Shown: piece by piece, positions 1 to 10,680 of the stretch
Position numbering within the stretch: position 1 is the stretch's first letter
Layout of the letters: the number at the start of each line of letters is the position of its first letter
Assembly: GCA_903933915.1 (NCBI GenBank)
Contig: CAIZLW010000026.1
Location: 1 to 39,471, forward strand
Direction of reading: 5' to 3'
DNA: 39,471 nucleotides
Source: an uncultured beta proteobacterium
GTDB lineage: Bacteria > Pseudomonadota > Gammaproteobacteria > Burkholderiales > SG8-41
Notes under the pieces: model-generated
Told to the model about the DNA's origin: nothing
Databases searched by the model: none
What the model saw: only the letters and a program-made list of their open reading frames with translations
Position numbers and translations under genes: made by a program

Positions 1-1320
1 GTGCCATTCTGACCACCTGCCAGTGGAATCTACAACCTTTAGGTATTTGTTGATGGCCTCAGCGAACGACGAAAGCGTCATTGGCTTCGGTGTTTGTCCA
101 ATTGGGACCGTCTCTATTGCGCTTAATAGGTATGGGTTAAACGTAACTCGGGAAATTAATTTAAGGCATTCGAATGCATCACGCATGACTGGAATGGCGG
201 GCCAAATATCGGCATTTTCTTTGTCTTTGATCTTCTGTTGTTTTGCATGGGTTCCAACGATTACATGAGTTCCATGAAGTGATTTGACGCAATCTTTTGT
301 AAAGCTTGTTAGGTCGCTGTAGCGAGCCCCTGTGTATAACCCAATCAATGTCATTGCGGCTCGCTGCACTCTGCTAATGTATTTGAAGTACTCTTGGGGT
401 GTTACCCCGTGTGATTTTTTAAAGTGACGCCTTTCGCCTTGTGACAACGTGCCCCTACTGCCTCGTCGAGAAGAGTACTCGCGGTCTTTAATTCGAATGG
501 ACTCATAATCGTTGAAGGCTGTCGCTCCATTAGATATTCGACCCGAAAATGTGTGAGTGGGAATCTTTTGCGAATTATCGATTGGTTGAATTCCATTGAA
601 GAGTAAAAACCCAGTCACGTCTCTACAGGCGTTGATTGAGAGAAGACGGAAAAGCTCTTTCGGCATTACCCGTTTGTAATCTGTGCGTTTATTGGGGTAT
701 TTAAATTCAAGGGTTGAAACGTCTTTGTCTGTCCACTTAAGTCTGGAACTCGGTAAAGCCCTCGACATCAGTGACGACGTAAGTGCCCTAAGTGATCCGC
801 TCAGTTGTGCTCCGTCTGCTCGATCAGACTCAATGAGCGCTTTACGTAGATCGCGCACGGATATGTCTGTAAGTGAGCGAATGGTTGACTTTTTGCTGTT
901 AAGCGAAGTGGCTACTTCTTGATGTCTTTGGTAAATTCTTGAAAATAAGAAAATCATCCCACGCAACATAACCACTACTGTTTGCGGCTTGATCGAATGA
1001 CTATTTGTTTTCCCGAAAGCAGAGGGAACTGTTAGGTAAAGATAGGCGAAGGTTTTAAGTTCCTGAATCATGGTTTGAGGAATGATTGTTTGTTGGCCGC
1101 GCCGTAATTTTTCTTGATTTCTTTCGGCGGAATATTTGGCCCAATCAATTCTCAGCCTTGATGCTGGTACGGAATTCAGTCGTATTATTTTATGATCGTT
1201 AAAATCCCACAGTTCATCACCAAAGCGTGAATTATTTGACACACGTTCGTCTGCTTTAATGACAATTGATTTTTTATTATATAAATCACTAAGGCGAAGG
1301 CTGCTGATCTTATTCCTCAC
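1..1320 (-). CDS. Third tyrosine recombinase of the trio, 3' end cut by window edge
   Basis: An open frame of 440 codons runs from a GTG at 1320 to the window edge without a stop. The GTG overlaps the stop of the upstream recombinase (GTGA), and a GAGGTG ribosome-binding site lies about 8 bases before it, which fixes the start. Around residues 326-337 the protein has a tyrosine-recombinase box I of the form TGARYSDL, with the catalytic arginine at about R333. The other catalytic residues (His, second Arg, Tyr) should lie in the missing part. The N-terminal 320 residues, probably the DNA-binding region, are not recognised in detail. It is probably translated by coupling with the gene before it. 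This is the position of ginC in GInt-type modules. Confidence 0.8.
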   Translation of the reverse strand, partial: MRNKISSLRLSDLYNKKSIVIKADERVSNNSRFGDELWDFNDHKIIRLNSVPASRLRIDWAKYSAERNQEKLRRGQQTIIPQTMIQELKTFAYLYLTVPSAFGKTNSHSIKPQTVVVMLRGMIFLFSRIYQRHQEVATSLNSKKSTIRSLTDISVRDLRKALIESDRADGAQLSGSLRALTSSLMSRALPSSRLKWTDKDVSTLEFKYPNKRTDYKRVMPKELFRLLSINACRDVTGFLLFNGIQPIDNSQKIPTHTFSGRISNGATAFNDYESIRIKDREYSSRRGSRGTLSQGERRHFKKSHGVTPQEYFKYISRVQRAAMTLIGLYTGARYSDLTSFTKDCVKSLHGTHVIVGTHAKQQKIKDKENADIWPAIPVMRDAFECLKLISRVTFNPYLLSAIETVPIGQTPKPMTLSSFAEAINKYLKVVDSTGRWSEWH

Positions 1321-3146
1321 TTCATCACACCTCGGTCAAGCAGTGGATCGACGATGATGTCCAGGGTCGTGCTCATCTCAATCGCCAACTGAATATCTTC
1401 GGAGCTAAACTGACTCGTCGTGGGATTGAGTAGATCATCAATCACGGCTAATGTTTGGTCGTAATGATTGCTGTTGGGTAGATTCTGAATGTTGTTGCTT
1501 TTGATCGAATGAATTTGATCGCGATAGGCGGCGAGAGATGGTAAATGTTCTTTCAATACGACAACGTTCTTGCAAAACAGGCACATATTAAATCTTGTGC
1601 ATGCTTGCCCTTCTACGTAATTTGCTGTTTTCTTAATCCGCTCGGGTGGATCGAAGACATTCTTGCAATCAGCAACCAGGCCTTTATAAAAGTGAATCGG
1701 CTGTATCTGATCTTTGCCATTTCTTTTGACATCCTTTATTTCGTCGGCATTTTCTCTGATTCTTTGGAGTGCCTCACTAACCGCTTTTCGGCCTGTTACG
1801 TCAAGGCGATTCATTGCCAAGTATTTAAAGGTCTGCTTTATCGACTTGTGGCGAGCAATCTGTTGAATCTCAAATAGATCTCTACCCTCTAATGCTAATT
1901 CCGTTAGCTTTGTTGATCTGAAGCGAACCAAGTTAAAGGCCAGAGGTTCGTGTTGATCATTCGTAAGCTTGTATTTCTCTACTATCCGTTTGCACCAAGA
2001 CGAGGTTTGCTTCTTGGTAATTGCGCAAATCTCTTTGTGCATTCTTGGCCCGGTAGACTCGTAAATAAAGAGATGATCTTTAAGTTCGTGATGTGCAGGT
2101 AATTGATCGCGAACTTTTTTAGTTAATCGTTTAATGGAAGTGATGACTCGCTCAACTCTTAAGGACTGTTTTCGCATTAGAGTACGTTGCTCTCGAGGAT
2201 CCAGCAGTGGCAGGTGGAGCTCTTTTTCACCTTGAGAACGTTCTTTCACGAAGGTCAAATAGGGCATTCCTGTCAACGGGTGAATCTCTTTAAGGCAGTC
2301 AACCCGGAGTTGTAGTAACGAGGAAGGATTTAGCCCGGTAAGAAATTGAAGCTCAATTGCGAGAGGCATTATCAGGTTCTCATCAATTAATGCTGCAACT
2401 CCCCAACGCCGATAAAGTTCGTGAAGTCCGCCGTGCAAATTTGTTGCTGATGTAAGGAAAGGCTTATGTTCTTTTTTTGCGGCTCCTGTTCCTATGATGG
2501 GGGTATTTTGGAGAACTTTTTCAAAGTACCACCGCATATTCGCTTCGACTCCCCATCCAAAACCACGTTTGCGTCCTAACTTTGGGCTCATCGTAGGATC
2601 CCGCCCGAGCTTTTGATCTTGAGATGTATAACCGGCAATAACTTTTCTGCAGTAAGTCAGTTCGGAAGCTATTGCATCCAGAATCTTTGCGGTTTCACTT
2701 TCTGAGTAGCTCTCATGTGCAGCTGTCTCACGGTATGCCGATCCCCATGCAGTCTCCTGGAGTGTGATTGAATCCAGCAGTCCATATGCGGCCGCCTCAA
2801 GCATTACTTGGCGTATGGCGCTGAAGTAACCCGTTAATGTGTGCGAGGCCAGTTTCAGTTCGCCTGAATCAATGCGGTCATCCAGTTCCTGCTTGAATCG
2901 GACCATGGCGAGTTCGTCCCACATCTGTGTCAAAAAATAGGGTTTTCGTCCATGAATTGCTTCGACGTGTGAAATAAAAAATGTCTTGGCCGACTTGTAG
3001 TTGCTTTTAGTGTCGGCGTTTTGTGCTCTATTACTTCGTTGATTAAATATCCACTCAACTTGAGCAAAGGGTTTGGCTTTTGTTGGAGCCGGAGGGCGGC
3101 CGTAATGTCTTGGATCCAGCGAAATAACTTTATTCTGATTTTTCAT
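1317..3146 (-). CDS. Second tyrosine recombinase of the trio, with altered catalytic residues
   Basis: This 609-residue protein has the C-terminal layout of a phage-integrase-type recombinase. A box I segment TGLNPSSLLQL lies at 270-280. A box II segment NLVRFR lies at 405-410, followed by ARHKS with H433 and FKYL with the presumed nucleophile Y442. At the usual box I arginine position there is N273, and at the usual box II histidine there is N405; R408, H433 and Y442 are kept. After the catalytic domain comes a cysteine group, C494 and C516-x5-C522-x2-C525, possibly a metal site, as in long TnpB-type recombinases of Tn554 relatives. The start ATG overlaps the previous stop (ATGA). The recombinase family is clear; whether this subunit is catalytic or structural is open. 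Confidence 0.88.
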   Translation of the reverse strand: MKNQNKVISLDPRHYGRPPAPTKAKPFAQVEWIFNQRSNRAQNADTKSNYKSAKTFFISHVEAIHGRKPYFLTQMWDELAMVRFKQELDDRIDSGELKLASHTLTGYFSAIRQVMLEAAAYGLLDSITLQETAWGSAYRETAAHESYSESETAKILDAIASELTYCRKVIAGYTSQDQKLGRDPTMSPKLGRKRGFGWGVEANMRWYFEKVLQNTPIIGTGAAKKEHKPFLTSATNLHGGLHELYRRWGVAALIDENLIMPLAIELQFLTGLNPSSLLQLRVDCLKEIHPLTGMPYLTFVKERSQGEKELHLPLLDPREQRTLMRKQSLRVERVITSIKRLTKKVRDQLPAHHELKDHLFIYESTGPRMHKEICAITKKQTSSWCKRIVEKYKLTNDQHEPLAFNLVRFRSTKLTELALEGRDLFEIQQIARHKSIKQTFKYLAMNRLDVTGRKAVSEALQRIRENADEIKDVKRNGKDQIQPIHFYKGLVADCKNVFDPPERIKKTANYVEGQACTRFNMCLFCKNVVVLKEHLPSLAAYRDQIHSIKSNNIQNLPNSNHYDQTLAVIDDLLNPTTSQFSSEDIQLAIEMSTTLDIIVDPLLDRGVMK

Positions 3147-4276
3147 TTTTTTCGCCCGATAACTATGACTTTGCGTTGCGACTTTTCTGGCAGGAAAGTG
3201 GCGTCTATTATTTTCTGAGCCTCCTCAAACCGATATCGAACCTCGTCTGGCCCTCTTGCCTCTGTCATCTGTTGAAGGACTGGTGCGGGGATGTGGGTAT
3301 AAATCTCTGTGGTTGCCAGTTTGCTATGCCCGAGTGCTCGCTGAAGTACTATTAAGTTGTCCAGAAGTGTCTTCCCGTGACCGCTTTTCATCACCGAGTA
3401 TGCAGTGCCATGCCTTAATCGATGCGCCGAGGCGGCTTTTAGTGAAGTTCTGTTTAAGGCGTCTGCAATTGATGCTTGAATAGCCTTTGTAGTTAAGGCC
3501 GTGCCGTATGTATTTAAGAAGGCTGGTTTTTCATTCTCAGGCCAGTCGTGATTTGTAAAGTAGGTGCGAGACTTAAAGTAGCGGTTGATGCGAATCAGCA
3601 TTGGTCTGGAGATGATCGTGTATCGCTCCTTGAATTCTTTCCCCCTCGCTTTACTTCCTCGAACAAATAGTGGGAAGTACATTAGGCTTGATGGATAGTG
3701 CTCAAAAACTGGCAGGTCGCTTTTTAGAACCCTTGGCACTTCTGAAGCTCGGAGGCCAGTGTCGTATATAAAATGAGCTACCAGTCGCTGGGCCTCCCAA
3801 TGCATCCCTTTCAGTAGTTCTATTACCTGATCTAAAGTCAGGTAGCGCGGCATTCGTAATTGTGGGCGCGGTGTTCGATACGTGATGTTTGTGTAAAGAG
3901 CACGTTCACGAACTCGACCTGATTCTTCAGTGGATAGCCAGTCAGTGAACTGCTTTAACAGGACTTCATACCCGCGTATGGTTGATGCGCCCAGCCCGCG
4001 GGCGCTGCAGGCACGATAGAACTCATCCATTACAGGCAGTCCCAGAGCGCGAACAGCCTCGTCTACTCGGTATTGACCGAATACCGGGTGATCTTCCAGG
4101 AATGAGCAGAAGTCTCTTAACCTACGTGCGTACAAATCAAGCGTGGCTTGACTGCGCTGACGGGGTGAGCGCTCTAAGCTTTGGATGAAATTCGTCGGAA
4201 GCGTAGCAACACGTTCCGATTCATCCAACAGCAAGTAAGAGGGGCGTTTGCTTTTCGTTGAGCGGTGAATGTCCAA
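3143..4276 (-). CDS. First tyrosine recombinase of the trio
   Basis: A 377-residue site-specific recombinase with a complete catalytic set: R176 in TGLRASE, H285 and R288 in HRLRH, H317 in LGHS and the tyrosine nucleophile Y326 in TTEIYTH. The N-terminal 130 residues look like a SAM-like core-binding domain ([12 protein letters not shown], then [15 protein letters not shown]). The only usable start is TTG at 4276, since an in-frame TAA lies directly before it and no ATG or GTG follows within the conserved N-terminus. The ribosome-binding site is weak. The start lies inside the 3' tail of the chimeric thyA frame, which ends at 4221, so coupling to thyA' translation is possible. It corresponds to ginA/tnpA in related modules. 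Confidence 0.92.
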
Positions 4277-4381
4277 TTAGACTCGCAATGTCGAATTTGA
4301 TTGAACATTTATACAATAATAAAGAAGCAATTAAAACAAGCTGATTCAAAAAAACCTCCATGAGATCCCTGTATTGAGCAT
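4269..4381. repeat. Subterminal repeats at the element end, likely recombinase-binding sites
   Basis: Three related 9-mers lie between the junction and the first recombinase. ATGTCCAAT is at 4269-4277, ATTGAACAT at 4300-4308 and ATTGAGCAT at 4373-4381. The first two form an imperfect inverted pair with a 22-base spacer; the third repeats the second in direct orientation, differing by one base. The first copy overlaps the recombinase start codon, so binding there could also repress the operon. The thyA side of the junction carries GGAACAT at 4403-4409, which resembles the same motif. The function as arm-type or core sites is inferred. Confidence 0.5.
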
Positions 4382-4401
4382 TTCTATAACAGTGGCATAA
4401 A

Positions 4402-4916
4402 AGGAACATGTCGGCACTGCGCTGATAGAGCTGGCAGGACAGTTTGCCGTCGGCGACATAGAACTGGAAAAACGCATGGCAGGGCATCAGTGCCATTTTG
4501 TCGAGGTCGGCGACATTCCACGCCGAAACGATCATGCGGCGCGAATCGGGATTCGTTTTCAGTTGCTGCAATACCTGGCTGATCTGGTCGATGTGACCGC
4601 CATTGGCCGTGGGCCACGAGCGCCACTGGTAGCCATAAACCGGGCCGAGGTCGCCATCCGCTTTGGCCCATTCATTCCAGATCGAGACGCCGTGGTCCTT
4701 CAGGTATTTGACGTTGGTGTCGCCCTGCAGAAACCACAGCAGTTCATGGATGATCGACTTCAGGTGTACCTTCTTGGTGGTCATCAGCGGAAAGCCGGCG
4801 TTCAGGTCGAAGCGCAGTTGAGCGCCGAACACTGAAATCGTGCCGGTGCCGGTGCGGTCGGATTTGCGGGTGCCCGTTTCGAGCACATGGCGCAGGAGGT
4901 CGTGGTAGGGGCGCAT
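4402..4916 (-). pseudogene. thyA: thyA thymidylate synthase, 5' part only, disrupted by the element
   Basis: Thymidylate synthase methylates dUMP to dTMP using methylenetetrahydrofolate. The first 172 residues are clearly ThyA: DRTGTGT near 20, the [14 protein letters not shown] block near 55-68, GPVYGYQWR near 91, SAWNV near 131, catalytic C146 in [11 protein letters not shown], and QRSADMF at 165-171. The family protein is about 264 residues. The frame then changes to unrelated sequence and ends at 4221, giving a foreign tail of about 60 residues. The missing third holds the asparagine that reads the dUMP base and the His/Tyr phosphate-site pair, so the product should be inactive. The start at 4916 matches the E. 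coli protein; the longer upstream frame has no similarity. The rest of thyA probably lies beyond the other end of the element. Confidence 0.93.
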
Positions 4917-4956
4917 GGAAGGCGGAGGTCGCTGGGGTCGGTTGAATATGGCGGCG

Positions 4957-4965
4957 ATTTTAGCA
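4957..4965 (-). promoter_or_regulatory. Candidate extended -10 promoter of thyA, now upstream of the recombinase operon
   Basis: On the minus strand the bases read TGCTAAAAT, an extended -10 element (TGn followed by TAAAAT), about 40 bases before the thyA start. No convincing -35 is visible, which an extended -10 can tolerate. Since thyA and the recombinases are co-directional and no terminator is visible between them, this promoter could also drive the recombinase genes. Confidence 0.4.
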
Positions 4966-4985
4966 GGCCGCGCGGCGGTCGCCGC

Positions 4986-4991
4986 TATAAT
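4986..4991 (+). promoter_or_regulatory. Candidate -10 box of the aminopeptidase gene
   Basis: A perfect TATAAT lies 30 bases before the ATG at 5022, in the 105-base divergent gap between thyA and the aminopeptidase. The -35 region 16-18 bases upstream is GC-rich and does not match the consensus, so an activator or weak promoter is possible. Confidence 0.4.
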
Positions 4992-5021
4992 CACCGGCAC
5001 TTCAATCCATGGATTTCCGCG

Positions 5022-6479
5022 ATGCTTGCCCGACTGTCTGCCCGTTCCGAATCGCCCGCTGCCCGAGAGCTGAAAAAAATCAGCCATCTGCTGATCATCG
5101 CGCCGGCCGGCATTGCGCTGCCGACTTTACCGCTGCACGAGGTGCTGGCGAAAACCCTGGCGCGCCGGCGCAAGAAAATGACTGATCTGCTCAAAGGGGC
5201 CATCACCGCGGAAACAGCGGAGGGCGCGCTAGTGTCATGGGTGACGCCGGATGTAGCGCAATCGGCGTTCGAGCAGCACACGCTGCTGCGCAAGGCGGTC
5301 AGCGCGCTGCTGGCCGAGCAACCCGAAACATTGACCATCGTGGTCACTGGGGCGGCATCGGTCCGGCACGAGCTGGCCGAGCGCGCGGTTTATGTGACCT
5401 GGATCAACGGCATTGCCCTGCCGCAACGCAAGAAAAAATCCGATCAGAAAACGCTGAAAACCATAGCCCTTTTTGGTCATCGGCCGACCGATGGTTTTGC
5501 GCAGGCGCGCGCCGCGGCGGAAGGCAATGTGTTGTGCCGCGAACTGACCGTGCTGCCGCCGAATGAGCTGACGCCCGGCGCCTACCGCAAACGTCTGGCT
5601 GCGCTGGCGAAGACGCAGGGCTGGGTTCGCGAGGAATACGATTTCAAAAAGCTCAAGCGCATGGGCGCCGGTGCGTTCTGCGCGGTGGCGCAAGGCAGCG
5701 ACGTGCCGGATGCCGCCATCGTGCGCCTGCGTTACCGGCCGCGTGGCGCGAATAAAACCGTGGCGCTGGTGGGCAAGGGCATCTGCTTTGATACCGGTGG
5801 CCACAACCTGAAGCCGGCGCGTTACATGAACGGCATGCACGAAGACATGAACGGTTCCGCTGTGGCGTTGGGCATACTCATGGCGGCGACCGCGGCGAAA
5901 CTGAAGGTCAACATCGACTGCTGGCTGGCGCTGGCGCAGAACCACATCGGGCCGCGCGCGTACAAGCAGAACGACATCGTCACCTCGCTGAACGGCACCA
6001 CGATCGAGATCGTCCATACCGACGCCGAAGGTCGCATGGTGCTGGCCGACACGCTGACGCTGGCGGCGCGCGCCAAGCCCGATGTGATGGTTGATTTCGC
6101 GACACTGACCGGCTCCATGCATGTCGCGCTGGGCAGTCGTTACAGCGGGATTTTTGCGACCAATGATGAACTGGCGCAGTTTGCCCTGCAGGCGGGTGTT
6201 GCGTCCGGTGAGCGCTTGTGTGCGTTCCCGATGGATGAGGATTACGACAGCGCGCTCGACAGCACGGTGGCCGACGTCAAGCAGTGCACGCTGTACGGCG
6301 AGGCCGACCATATTCTTGCGGCGCGACTGCTGCAACGCTTCACCGACAACACGCCGTGGATCCACATGGACCTGTCGGCGCACGGCTGCAAGGGCGGACT
6401 GGGGGCGGTGGCGACGGACTGCACCGGCTTTGGTGTGGCCTGGGGCAAGCTGTTCCTTGCCGGCTATGAACGGGATTAG
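5022..6479 (+). CDS. M17 leucyl aminopeptidase family protein
   Basis: A cytosolic metallopeptidase of the PepA family that removes N-terminal residues from peptides using two metal ions. The product has 485 residues from the ATG at 5022. The C-terminal catalytic domain shows [16 protein letters not shown] (metal-binding Lys and Asp), EDMNGSA (Asp ligand) and [14 protein letters not shown], the family signature NTDAEGR with His for the first Asn. The N-terminal 170 residues are the variable M17 domain. Longer in-frame starts back to 4887 would overlap the divergent thyA gene and its promoter and encode non-conserved, Arg/Gly-rich sequence, so they are rejected. It is divergent from thyA and convergent with the small gene at 6507. 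The family is sure; the exact peptide specificity is not. Confidence 0.92.
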
Positions 6480-9261: not shown

Positions 9262-10680
9262 ATGGCAGGCAAGACCTTATACGACAGGCTTTGGGAGAGT
9301 CATCTTGTTCGCGAAGAAGCGGACGGGACGGCGCTGATCTACATCGACCGCCATCTGGTGCATGAAGTCACCAGCCCGCAGGCCTACGAGGGGCTGAAGC
9401 TGGCGGGGCGCCCGGTCTGGCGCGTCGATTCCGTGGTGGCCACGGCCGATCACAACACGCCGACCCGCAACTGGGATCGCGGCCTCGACGGCATCACCGA
9501 TTCGGTGTCGCGCATTCAGGTCGAGACGCTGGACAAGAACATCAAGGAATTCAAGGCCAAGATCTATTTCCCGTTTCTCGACAAGAAACAGGGCATCGTG
9601 CATGTGATCGGGCCCGAGAACGGCGCGACGCTGCCGGGCATGACAGTGGTTTGCGGCGATTCGCACACCAGCACGCATGGCGCCTGTGCGGCACTGGCCT
9701 TCGGCATTGGCACCAGCGAAGTCGAGCACGTGCTGGCGACGCAGTGCATGGTGATGAAAAAATCGAAGGCGATGCAGATCGTCGTCGAAGGCAAACTCGG
9801 ACCCGGTGTGACCGGCAAGGATGTCGCGCTGGCGATCATTGGCCATATCGGCACTGCCGGCGGTACCGGCCACGCGGTGGAATTCTCCGGCAGCGCGATC
9901 CGCGGGCTGTCGATGGAAGGCCGCATGACCCTGTGCAATATGGCGATCGAAGCGGGCGCGCGCGCCGGCATGGTCGCGGTCGACGACAAGACCGTTGATT
10001 ACTTCAAAGGCCGTCTGTTCGCCCCCACCGGTGCACTATGGGACAAGGCTGCGGCCTACTGGCGCACGCTGGTCAGCGACCCGGACGCGAAGTTCGACAA
10101 GGTGATCACGATGAAGGCGGAAGACATCGTGCCGCAGGTGACCTGGGGCACGTCGCCCGAGATGGTCACCAGTGTTGACGGCAAGGTGCCGGATCCGGAA
10201 AAGGAAACCAATCCGGTGAAGCGCGAAGGTTATGCGCGCGCGCTGAAATACATGGATCTCAAACCGAACACGCCGATCCGTGACATCAAGCTCGACAAGG
10301 TGTTCATCGGTTCGTGCACTAATTCGCGCATTGAAGATCTGCGCGCCGCGGCCGCCGTGGCCAAAGGTCGCAAGGTCGCAGCCAACATCATGCTGGCGAT
10401 GGTGGTGCCGGGCTCCGGTCAGGTGAAGGCGCAGGCGGAACAGGAAGGACTGGACAAGATTTTCCTTGAAGCCGGTTTTGAATGGCGCGAACCGGGTTGT
10501 TCGATGTGTCTGGGCATGAATGAAGATCAGCTGAGCCCGGGTGAACGTTGTGCCTCGACATCGAACCGCAATTTTGAAGGCCGCCAGGGCGCCGGCGGCA
10601 GGACGCATCTGGTCAGTCCGGCCATGGCCGCGGCTGCGGCGGTGGCTGGTCATTTTGTCGATGTTCGCGAATTAACCTGA
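9262..10680 (+). CDS. leuC: 3-isopropylmalate dehydratase large subunit
   Basis: Isomerises 2-isopropylmalate to 3-isopropylmalate together with LeuD, in leucine synthesis. The 472-residue product has the aconitase-family iron-sulfur cysteines in [16 protein letters not shown] near residue 350 and GCSMCLGMN near 413-421, and the substrate-binding [22 protein letters not shown] near 130. The length is normal and the N-terminus ([13 protein letters not shown]) is typical. It heads a block with an entericidin-like gene, leuD and leuB. A GATAAT at 9215-9220 is a possible -10, without a clear -35. Confidence 0.97.

Follow-up and report, generated by a model that had tools for sequence, protein, structure and literature searches.

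A probable SE-like element splitting thyA in an uncultured betaproteobacterium, with relatives that carry a complete thymidylate synthase

We analyzed a window of 39,471 bases, i.e., the whole of contig C26 of the draft genome G000 of an uncultured beta proteobacterium (246 contigs; assembly estimates of 100% completeness and 7.19% contamination). The window holds the recombinase end of an element that splits the thymidylate synthase gene thyA. With a probability of about 0.82, we consider it an SE-like element, SE standing for strand-biased circularizing integrative element, inserted site-specifically in the conserved thyA segment S-A-D-M-F-L / G-V-P-F-N, of a type that has a block of five genes, i.e., three tyrosine recombinases, a small gene and a complete foreign thymidylate synthase. 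The split gene and both junctions were read directly in this genome. The linked synthase was read in relatives, in two of which it is the sole full-length one found.

The split thyA locus and its junctions

A Pfam search of G000 returned two thymidylate synthase pieces and no full-length PF00303 match. The piece in the window covers profile positions 2-192 (9.4e-86) and its similarity stops at 4402, from where the thyA frame continues into element sequence up to a stop codon at 4221. The other piece lies on contig C94 (profile positions 159-266); here, the match extends upstream into element sequence, and this is where the stop inside the match lies. The features of the locus are as follows.

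Host thyA 5′ part: 4402..4916, reverse strand, 171 complete codons, interrupted in codon 172; set by PF00303, the 3′ part on C94 and alignment to an intact relative.
Host thyA 3′ part: G000:C94:14667-14990, from the Pfam search of G000.
Six-nucleotide spacer TGTTCC: 4403..4408, reverse strand, at the recombinase-side junction; the same as the uninterrupted site in eight of nine relatives, TGTTTT in the ninth.
Left terminal arm TTTTATGCCACTGTTAT: 4386..4402, reverse strand; imperfect inverted partner at C94 14951-14965, 9 of 12 positions, a value that 95 of 5000 shuffles reach.
rec1: 3143-4276, reverse strand, 377 residues, TTG start; tyrosine recombinase in which the R-HxxR-H-Y set is complete.
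rec2: 1317-3146, reverse strand, 609 residues; large protein of recombinase fold without the first Arg and the second-box His, Tfp-like.
rec3: 1-1320, reverse strand, 440 residues, first Arg kept; C-terminal part lost at the contig end.

Aligned to an intact relative, the two thyA pieces read ...SADMF / GVPFN..., with one codon (Leu) left at the junction. All nine relatives compared have an intact thyA that adjoins folA (9/9) and a pepA-like gene (8/9), and these neighbors match the arrangement on C94 and C26. With abutting pieces and a pepA-thyA-folA order as in the relatives, C26 and C94 therefore carry the two flanks of a single interrupted thyA locus. Insertion inside thyA, as an earlier note on this DNA had proposed, is thus borne out: the missing 3′ fragment was sought and located on C94 of the same genome, abutting at codon 172, and the other element end and cargo, both expected beyond the window, are present there as well. 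The note had also called thyA a striking target. The insertion is real, but integration within thyA is already in print for Tn7360 and Tn7361 of Aeromonas (PMC10229833).

The bases up to 4403 are identical to the uninterrupted site of the relatives, which reads GACA TGTTCC TCGGCGTG or a near variant, and the element arm follows from 4402 on. While TGTTCC stands at the near, recombinase side, the six-mer at the far side on C94 is TGGCGC. In SEs, six host nucleotides are described at the intA side and six carried-in nucleotides at the far side (PMC10214605), a junction rule that the window element follows.

The three recombinase genes read away from thyA and overlap by 4 nucleotides each, at ATGA and GTGA; the coordinates and overlaps of the earlier note were confirmed. 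Its statement that the trio begins exactly where ThyA similarity ends needs correction in part. Similarity does end at 4402, but rec1 starts 126 nucleotides inside the element (4276). The Pfam family Phage_integrase matched rec1 at 8.3e-15, rec2 at 6.2e-5 and rec3 weakly at 0.087, compared with 4e-5 for a complete rec3 relative (locus L010, see below). A search of the G000 assembly for the rest of rec3 gave no match.

Related islands and their carried synthase

A scan of genome contigs with rec1 returned two loci, L010 (genome G001) and L011 (genome G002), from metagenome-assembled genomes titled Betaproteobacteria and Dechloromonas, at 73 and 71% identity to rec1 of the window. Both have thyA interrupted in the same codon as the window, with the two halves on a single contig and 33.2 and 32.4 kb apart, respectively. 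A third island of ~33.5 kb came from G173, one of 399 genomes surveyed from the same order. It occupies another thyA site, G-D-C-H / I-Y-S-N-H, and is reversed, i.e., rec1 lies near the thyA 3′ part, with folA behind. A fourth member, with 14-bp terminal repeats ~28.6 kb apart, is found on the P. putida plasmid NZ_CP061724.1 (L034), where no thyA fragment was found. The targets are hence few, with the islands of the window, L010 and L011 in the identical thyA codon and that of G173 elsewhere in thyA. Measured against L010, the identities of rec1/rec2/rec3 are 85/81/82% for L011, 32/31/27% for G173 and 30/28/31% for the plasmid member. At G001:C167 ~10041-10280 (in L030), the thyA 3′ part is without the usual C-terminal end and reads FEDFRLDHAGATSS, as expected of a disused gene.

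These islands also have two unlike six-mers each (L010, TCTTTC/CATTTC; L011, TCTTCC/CGGGAC; G173, CACATC/CACCTG), although same-species empty sites were not among the sequences compared. SEs are described with imperfect inverted repeats of 13-19 bp at their ends. Here, the best 12-mer match between terminal arms was 9, 9, 8, 10 and 12 of 12 for the window element, L010, L011, G173 and the plasmid member, and was equalled by 95, 90, 215, 7 and 0 of 5000 shuffles, respectively. The arms thus do clearly better than shuffles in G173 and the plasmid member, and only moderately better in the three elements that share a codon.

In all four readable members (three in thyA, one on the plasmid), a small gene and then a full-length thymidylate synthase lie downstream of the trio. 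The small fourth gene that the earlier note had suggested looking for after the third recombinase is present in the complete islands of L010, L011 and G173; in the relatives, it encodes 142-168 residues and matches no Pfam family above its cut-off. It is separated from the synthase gene by 78 nucleotides in L010 and L011 and by 16 in G173, and overlaps it by 4 in the plasmid member. The synthase has 330 residues in L010 and L011 and 277 in G173 and on the plasmid. The L010 protein scores 619 bits against an NCBI thymidylate synthase cut-off of 576, aligns end to end with PDB 3v8h and is 92% identical to that of L011 (dN/dS 0.052). A homolog of the split gene is therefore carried in three of three complete islands inserted in thyA. 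Moreover, the carried synthase is the sole full-length PF00303 match in G001, G002 and G173, and no ThyX was found in G000, G001 and G002, the three genomes searched (G173 was outside this search).

In a tree, the 330-residue and 277-residue pairs fall into different clades, neither of them within that of host thyA, with some long branches flagged. The carried synthases thus appear to be two unrelated lineages, foreign to host thyA. When compared with the 26-nucleotide target, the carried genes (n=4) match at most 15 positions in any stretch, whereas nine host relatives match at 19-26; the element is therefore not expected to target the carried gene.

As controls we used plasmid trios. rec2 matched 25 plasmid records, of which one was the P. 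putida plasmid; ten were examined and the 14 others left out. The ten loci comprise nine complete trios and one fragment (C. freundii) and cannot each count as independent, since two sphingomonad modules look alike. Neither annotation nor tblastn searches using three of the carried synthases showed a synthase at any of the ten loci, whereas the same tblastn detected it in 4/4 members.

Profile surveys with rec1 gave matches in 2/399 genomes of the order (the window's own and G173) and in 2/399 of the family of G173 (G173 and G1215, the latter with a truncated rec1). With rec2, 1/369 genomes of the class (the window's own) and 1/199 of the family of G001 (G001) matched. The truncated rec1 remnant, G1215:C1:3700281-3700961 (L061), lies next to a radical-SAM-like gene (read by eye), and no synthase was found in the 16 kb examined there. 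Two scans of viral contigs yielded no viral relatives of the recombinases. Searches of E. coli genomes gave only ordinary thyA matches, none above 80% of the query. Plasmid synthases matched by the L010 synthase (Leaf58, Azospira, Variovorax, Methylibium) were set aside as candidates, no recombinase trio being annotated in the stretches viewed.

Cargo differs between the islands of the window, L010 and L011. The right-end cargo of the window's island, on C94 (L026, 15420-19947), encodes a 972-residue UvrD-like helicase with a PD-(D/E)XK nuclease domain, together with an N6/N4 DNA methyltransferase that runs off the contig; both resemble defence-library models. In the L010 island (L030 1859-14480, L029 2906-5653), large helicases and a methyltransferase match DpdE/DrmD, DruE, DrmMI and PDC-S28 models and possibly form a mixed or new defence cluster. 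L011 carries a large helicase and, read by eye, a copper/metal efflux block, and the plasmid member (L034 from 11767; NZ_CP061724.1 ~48100-76747) carries arsenic, chromate and fluoride genes. The earlier note had supposed that the cargo outside the window might be the novel part. Cargo is indeed there on C94, but the notable piece is the full synthase after the fourth gene, which was read in relatives only. The plasmid member shows this synthase travelling with the recombinase module even outside thyA.

Mechanism, element family and alternatives

We propose that rec1 and rec3, aided by rec2 and the small protein, would insert a circular copy of the element at the conserved thyA coding site. 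If the element, as reported for SEs, makes no empty site, thyA would be permanently lost. The carried synthase would then take over dTMP synthesis, so that the cell would survive the disruption of an essential gene but would die if it later lost the island. Being unlike the target site, the carried gene would not be hit by the element itself. In the co-directional islands (the window's own, L010 and L011), the thyA promoter could read the block, with the synthase as its last gene.

Several observations weigh against this proposal. The carried synthase was not found in the genome search of the G000 assembly. The window contig stops inside rec3; its end is missing from the assembly, in a search that did not take in the small gene. 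The window recombinases are just 72/58/45% identical to those of L010 (rec1/rec2/rec3, rec3 being partial). Members are rare in the surveys, although the survey is small. The P. putida plasmid member carries a synthase yet sits outside thyA. As for expression, a promoter-pattern scan of window positions 4000-5200 gave no promoter, and in G173, where the block runs antisense to thyA, transcription from the thyA promoter is impossible and a separate promoter is required.

In an alternative reading, the island of the window sits in thyA without a synthase, and the host lives by salvage or on a gene that the assembly lacks. An assembly estimated to be 100% complete that offers neither a full-length PF00303 match nor ThyX, and recombinases clearly diverged from those of L010, would fit such a case. 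We nevertheless judge it improbable, for the synthase directly follows the small gene in 4/4 readable relatives, two of which share just 27-32% recombinase identity with L010, and the window contig ends within rec3, just ahead of the place where the synthase is expected. The window's own element would hence carry its synthase in the part lost to the assembly gap.

Marginally less likely still is that the element is a GInt, i.e., a ginABCD island, that came to lie in thyA by chance and whose synthase is cargo like any other. GInts resemble it in their three recombinases and small fourth gene, their overlapping genes, their large and varied cargo and their 6-nucleotide staggered exchange (PMC5385486), and the size of 33 kb is close to the GInt median of 34.9 kb (PMC10214605). 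We had first assumed this family ourselves. It was dropped since the degenerate recombinase is second in 14/14 modules compared and third, as GinC, in GInts (PMC10214605, PMC5385486). Moreover, the synthase occupies one fixed place in the four members and is absent from the ten controls, which speaks against ordinary cargo, and the authors of the GInt description expect the target not to be completely inactivated (PMC5385486).

With its degenerate recombinase second, the module fits the SE order better. The SE core is described as three recombinases, of which the first is ordinary, the second degenerate and the third large, followed by a small auxiliary protein (PMC10214605); this four-gene order is complete in L010, L011, G173 and the plasmid member, and the window shows its first three genes, the third one cut. 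SEs are also set apart by a Tfp without the RHRY residues. In 14/14 modules, rec2 is without the first Arg and the second-box His, yet keeps the last-box Tyr. rec3 retains its first Arg in all 14, with the second-box His replaced in the plasmid member and the Agrobacterium control. Judged by gene order and catalytic residues, we class the window element as SE-like rather than as a proven SE, because rec2 keeps the last Tyr and the hosts of L010 and L011 lie outside the Gammaproteobacteria, the published SE hosts (PMC10214605). Trios with a degenerate second recombinase also occur on alpha- and betaproteobacterial plasmids (Novosphingobium, Sphingobium, Agrobacterium, Burkholderia; L063-L070, L072), i.e., beyond these published hosts. 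RIT elements, described with three recombinases of 315-410 residues, all with the catalytic Tyr, and 34-bp inverted repeats (PMC10214605), were rejected for misfit of size, as rec2 has 609 residues and complete rec3 relatives have 654. The earlier note was thus right in placing the trio among known three-recombinase modules, but the GInt and RIT families it named are less fitting than the SE order.

Finally, an assembly or binning artefact, i.e., a chimeric join at 4402, which the earlier note had named as a danger to its proposal, or a mixture of two organisms, might be feared in a contaminated draft of many contigs but is highly improbable given that both thyA parts abut at one codon with gene order kept and that the identical junction codon lies on single contigs of two other, independent assemblies.

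Precedents and implications

We regard two published systems as direct precedents for islands that break a gene and replace it. SE-6283 resembles the islands described here in its active, degenerate and active recombinases with a small protein, its six-nucleotide fingerprint and its coding target, bcp (PMC9345347, PMC10214605). It carries a bcp homolog under the locus tag next after the small gene, and its copy on plasmid pSEA1 lies outside bcp, just as the P. putida plasmid member lies outside thyA (PMC9345347). It differs in its target gene and in its hosts, which are Gammaproteobacteria, the comparison being one by description only (PMC9345347). Islands in tmk, found in Pseudomonas (e.g., P. 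putida KT2440) and others, likewise combine a split essential gene of the dTMP pathway with a foreign replacement enzyme; in KT2440, dNMPK was shown to replace tmk, and two tyrosine recombinases, an unknown protein and a TetR-like gene lie nearby (PMC10653934). In these islands, however, the target is tmk and the substitute dNMPK, and they are not described there as SE or GInt (PMC10653934).

Two other groups share single traits. Tn7360 and Tn7361a/b of Aeromonas integrate within thyA with 6-bp direct repeats but are described as integrative and mobilizable elements (PMC10229833). The Tn554-type Tn552-II has a carried-in att at its far end and a gene resembling its target gene, suggested as rescue; unlike the islands here, it belongs to Staphylococcus, uses a 7-bp att and has no essential target (PMC12486829). 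In full-text literature on thyA or thymidylate and islands, mostly open-access and covered by title or in parts, no paper was found that joins a thyA insertion with a carried synthase.

As a more tentative generalization, which we hold to be rather less probable than not, elements with an SE-type trio may keep a slot after the small gene for a working substitute of the target they destroy. Since such an element would copy itself out without vacating its site, the target would be permanently lost and the substitute would make the island addictive, i.e., a toxin-free addiction system in which loss leads to thymineless death. The slot would be refilled from unrelated sources as target or site changes, the examples being two synthase lineages in the case of thyA, the bcp homolog of SE-6283 and probably dNMPK in the case of tmk.

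The islands would represent a type of mobile element that disrupts an essential gene and supplies the replacement, with two thyA sites and two unrelated replacement enzymes. Together with SE-6283 in bcp and the tmk islands, this suggests a rule by which highly conserved coding sequences serve as landing sites, and a toxin-free route by which a host may become dependent on an island. A further lesson is that an essential gene found in two pieces in a draft genome can reflect a genuine insertion.

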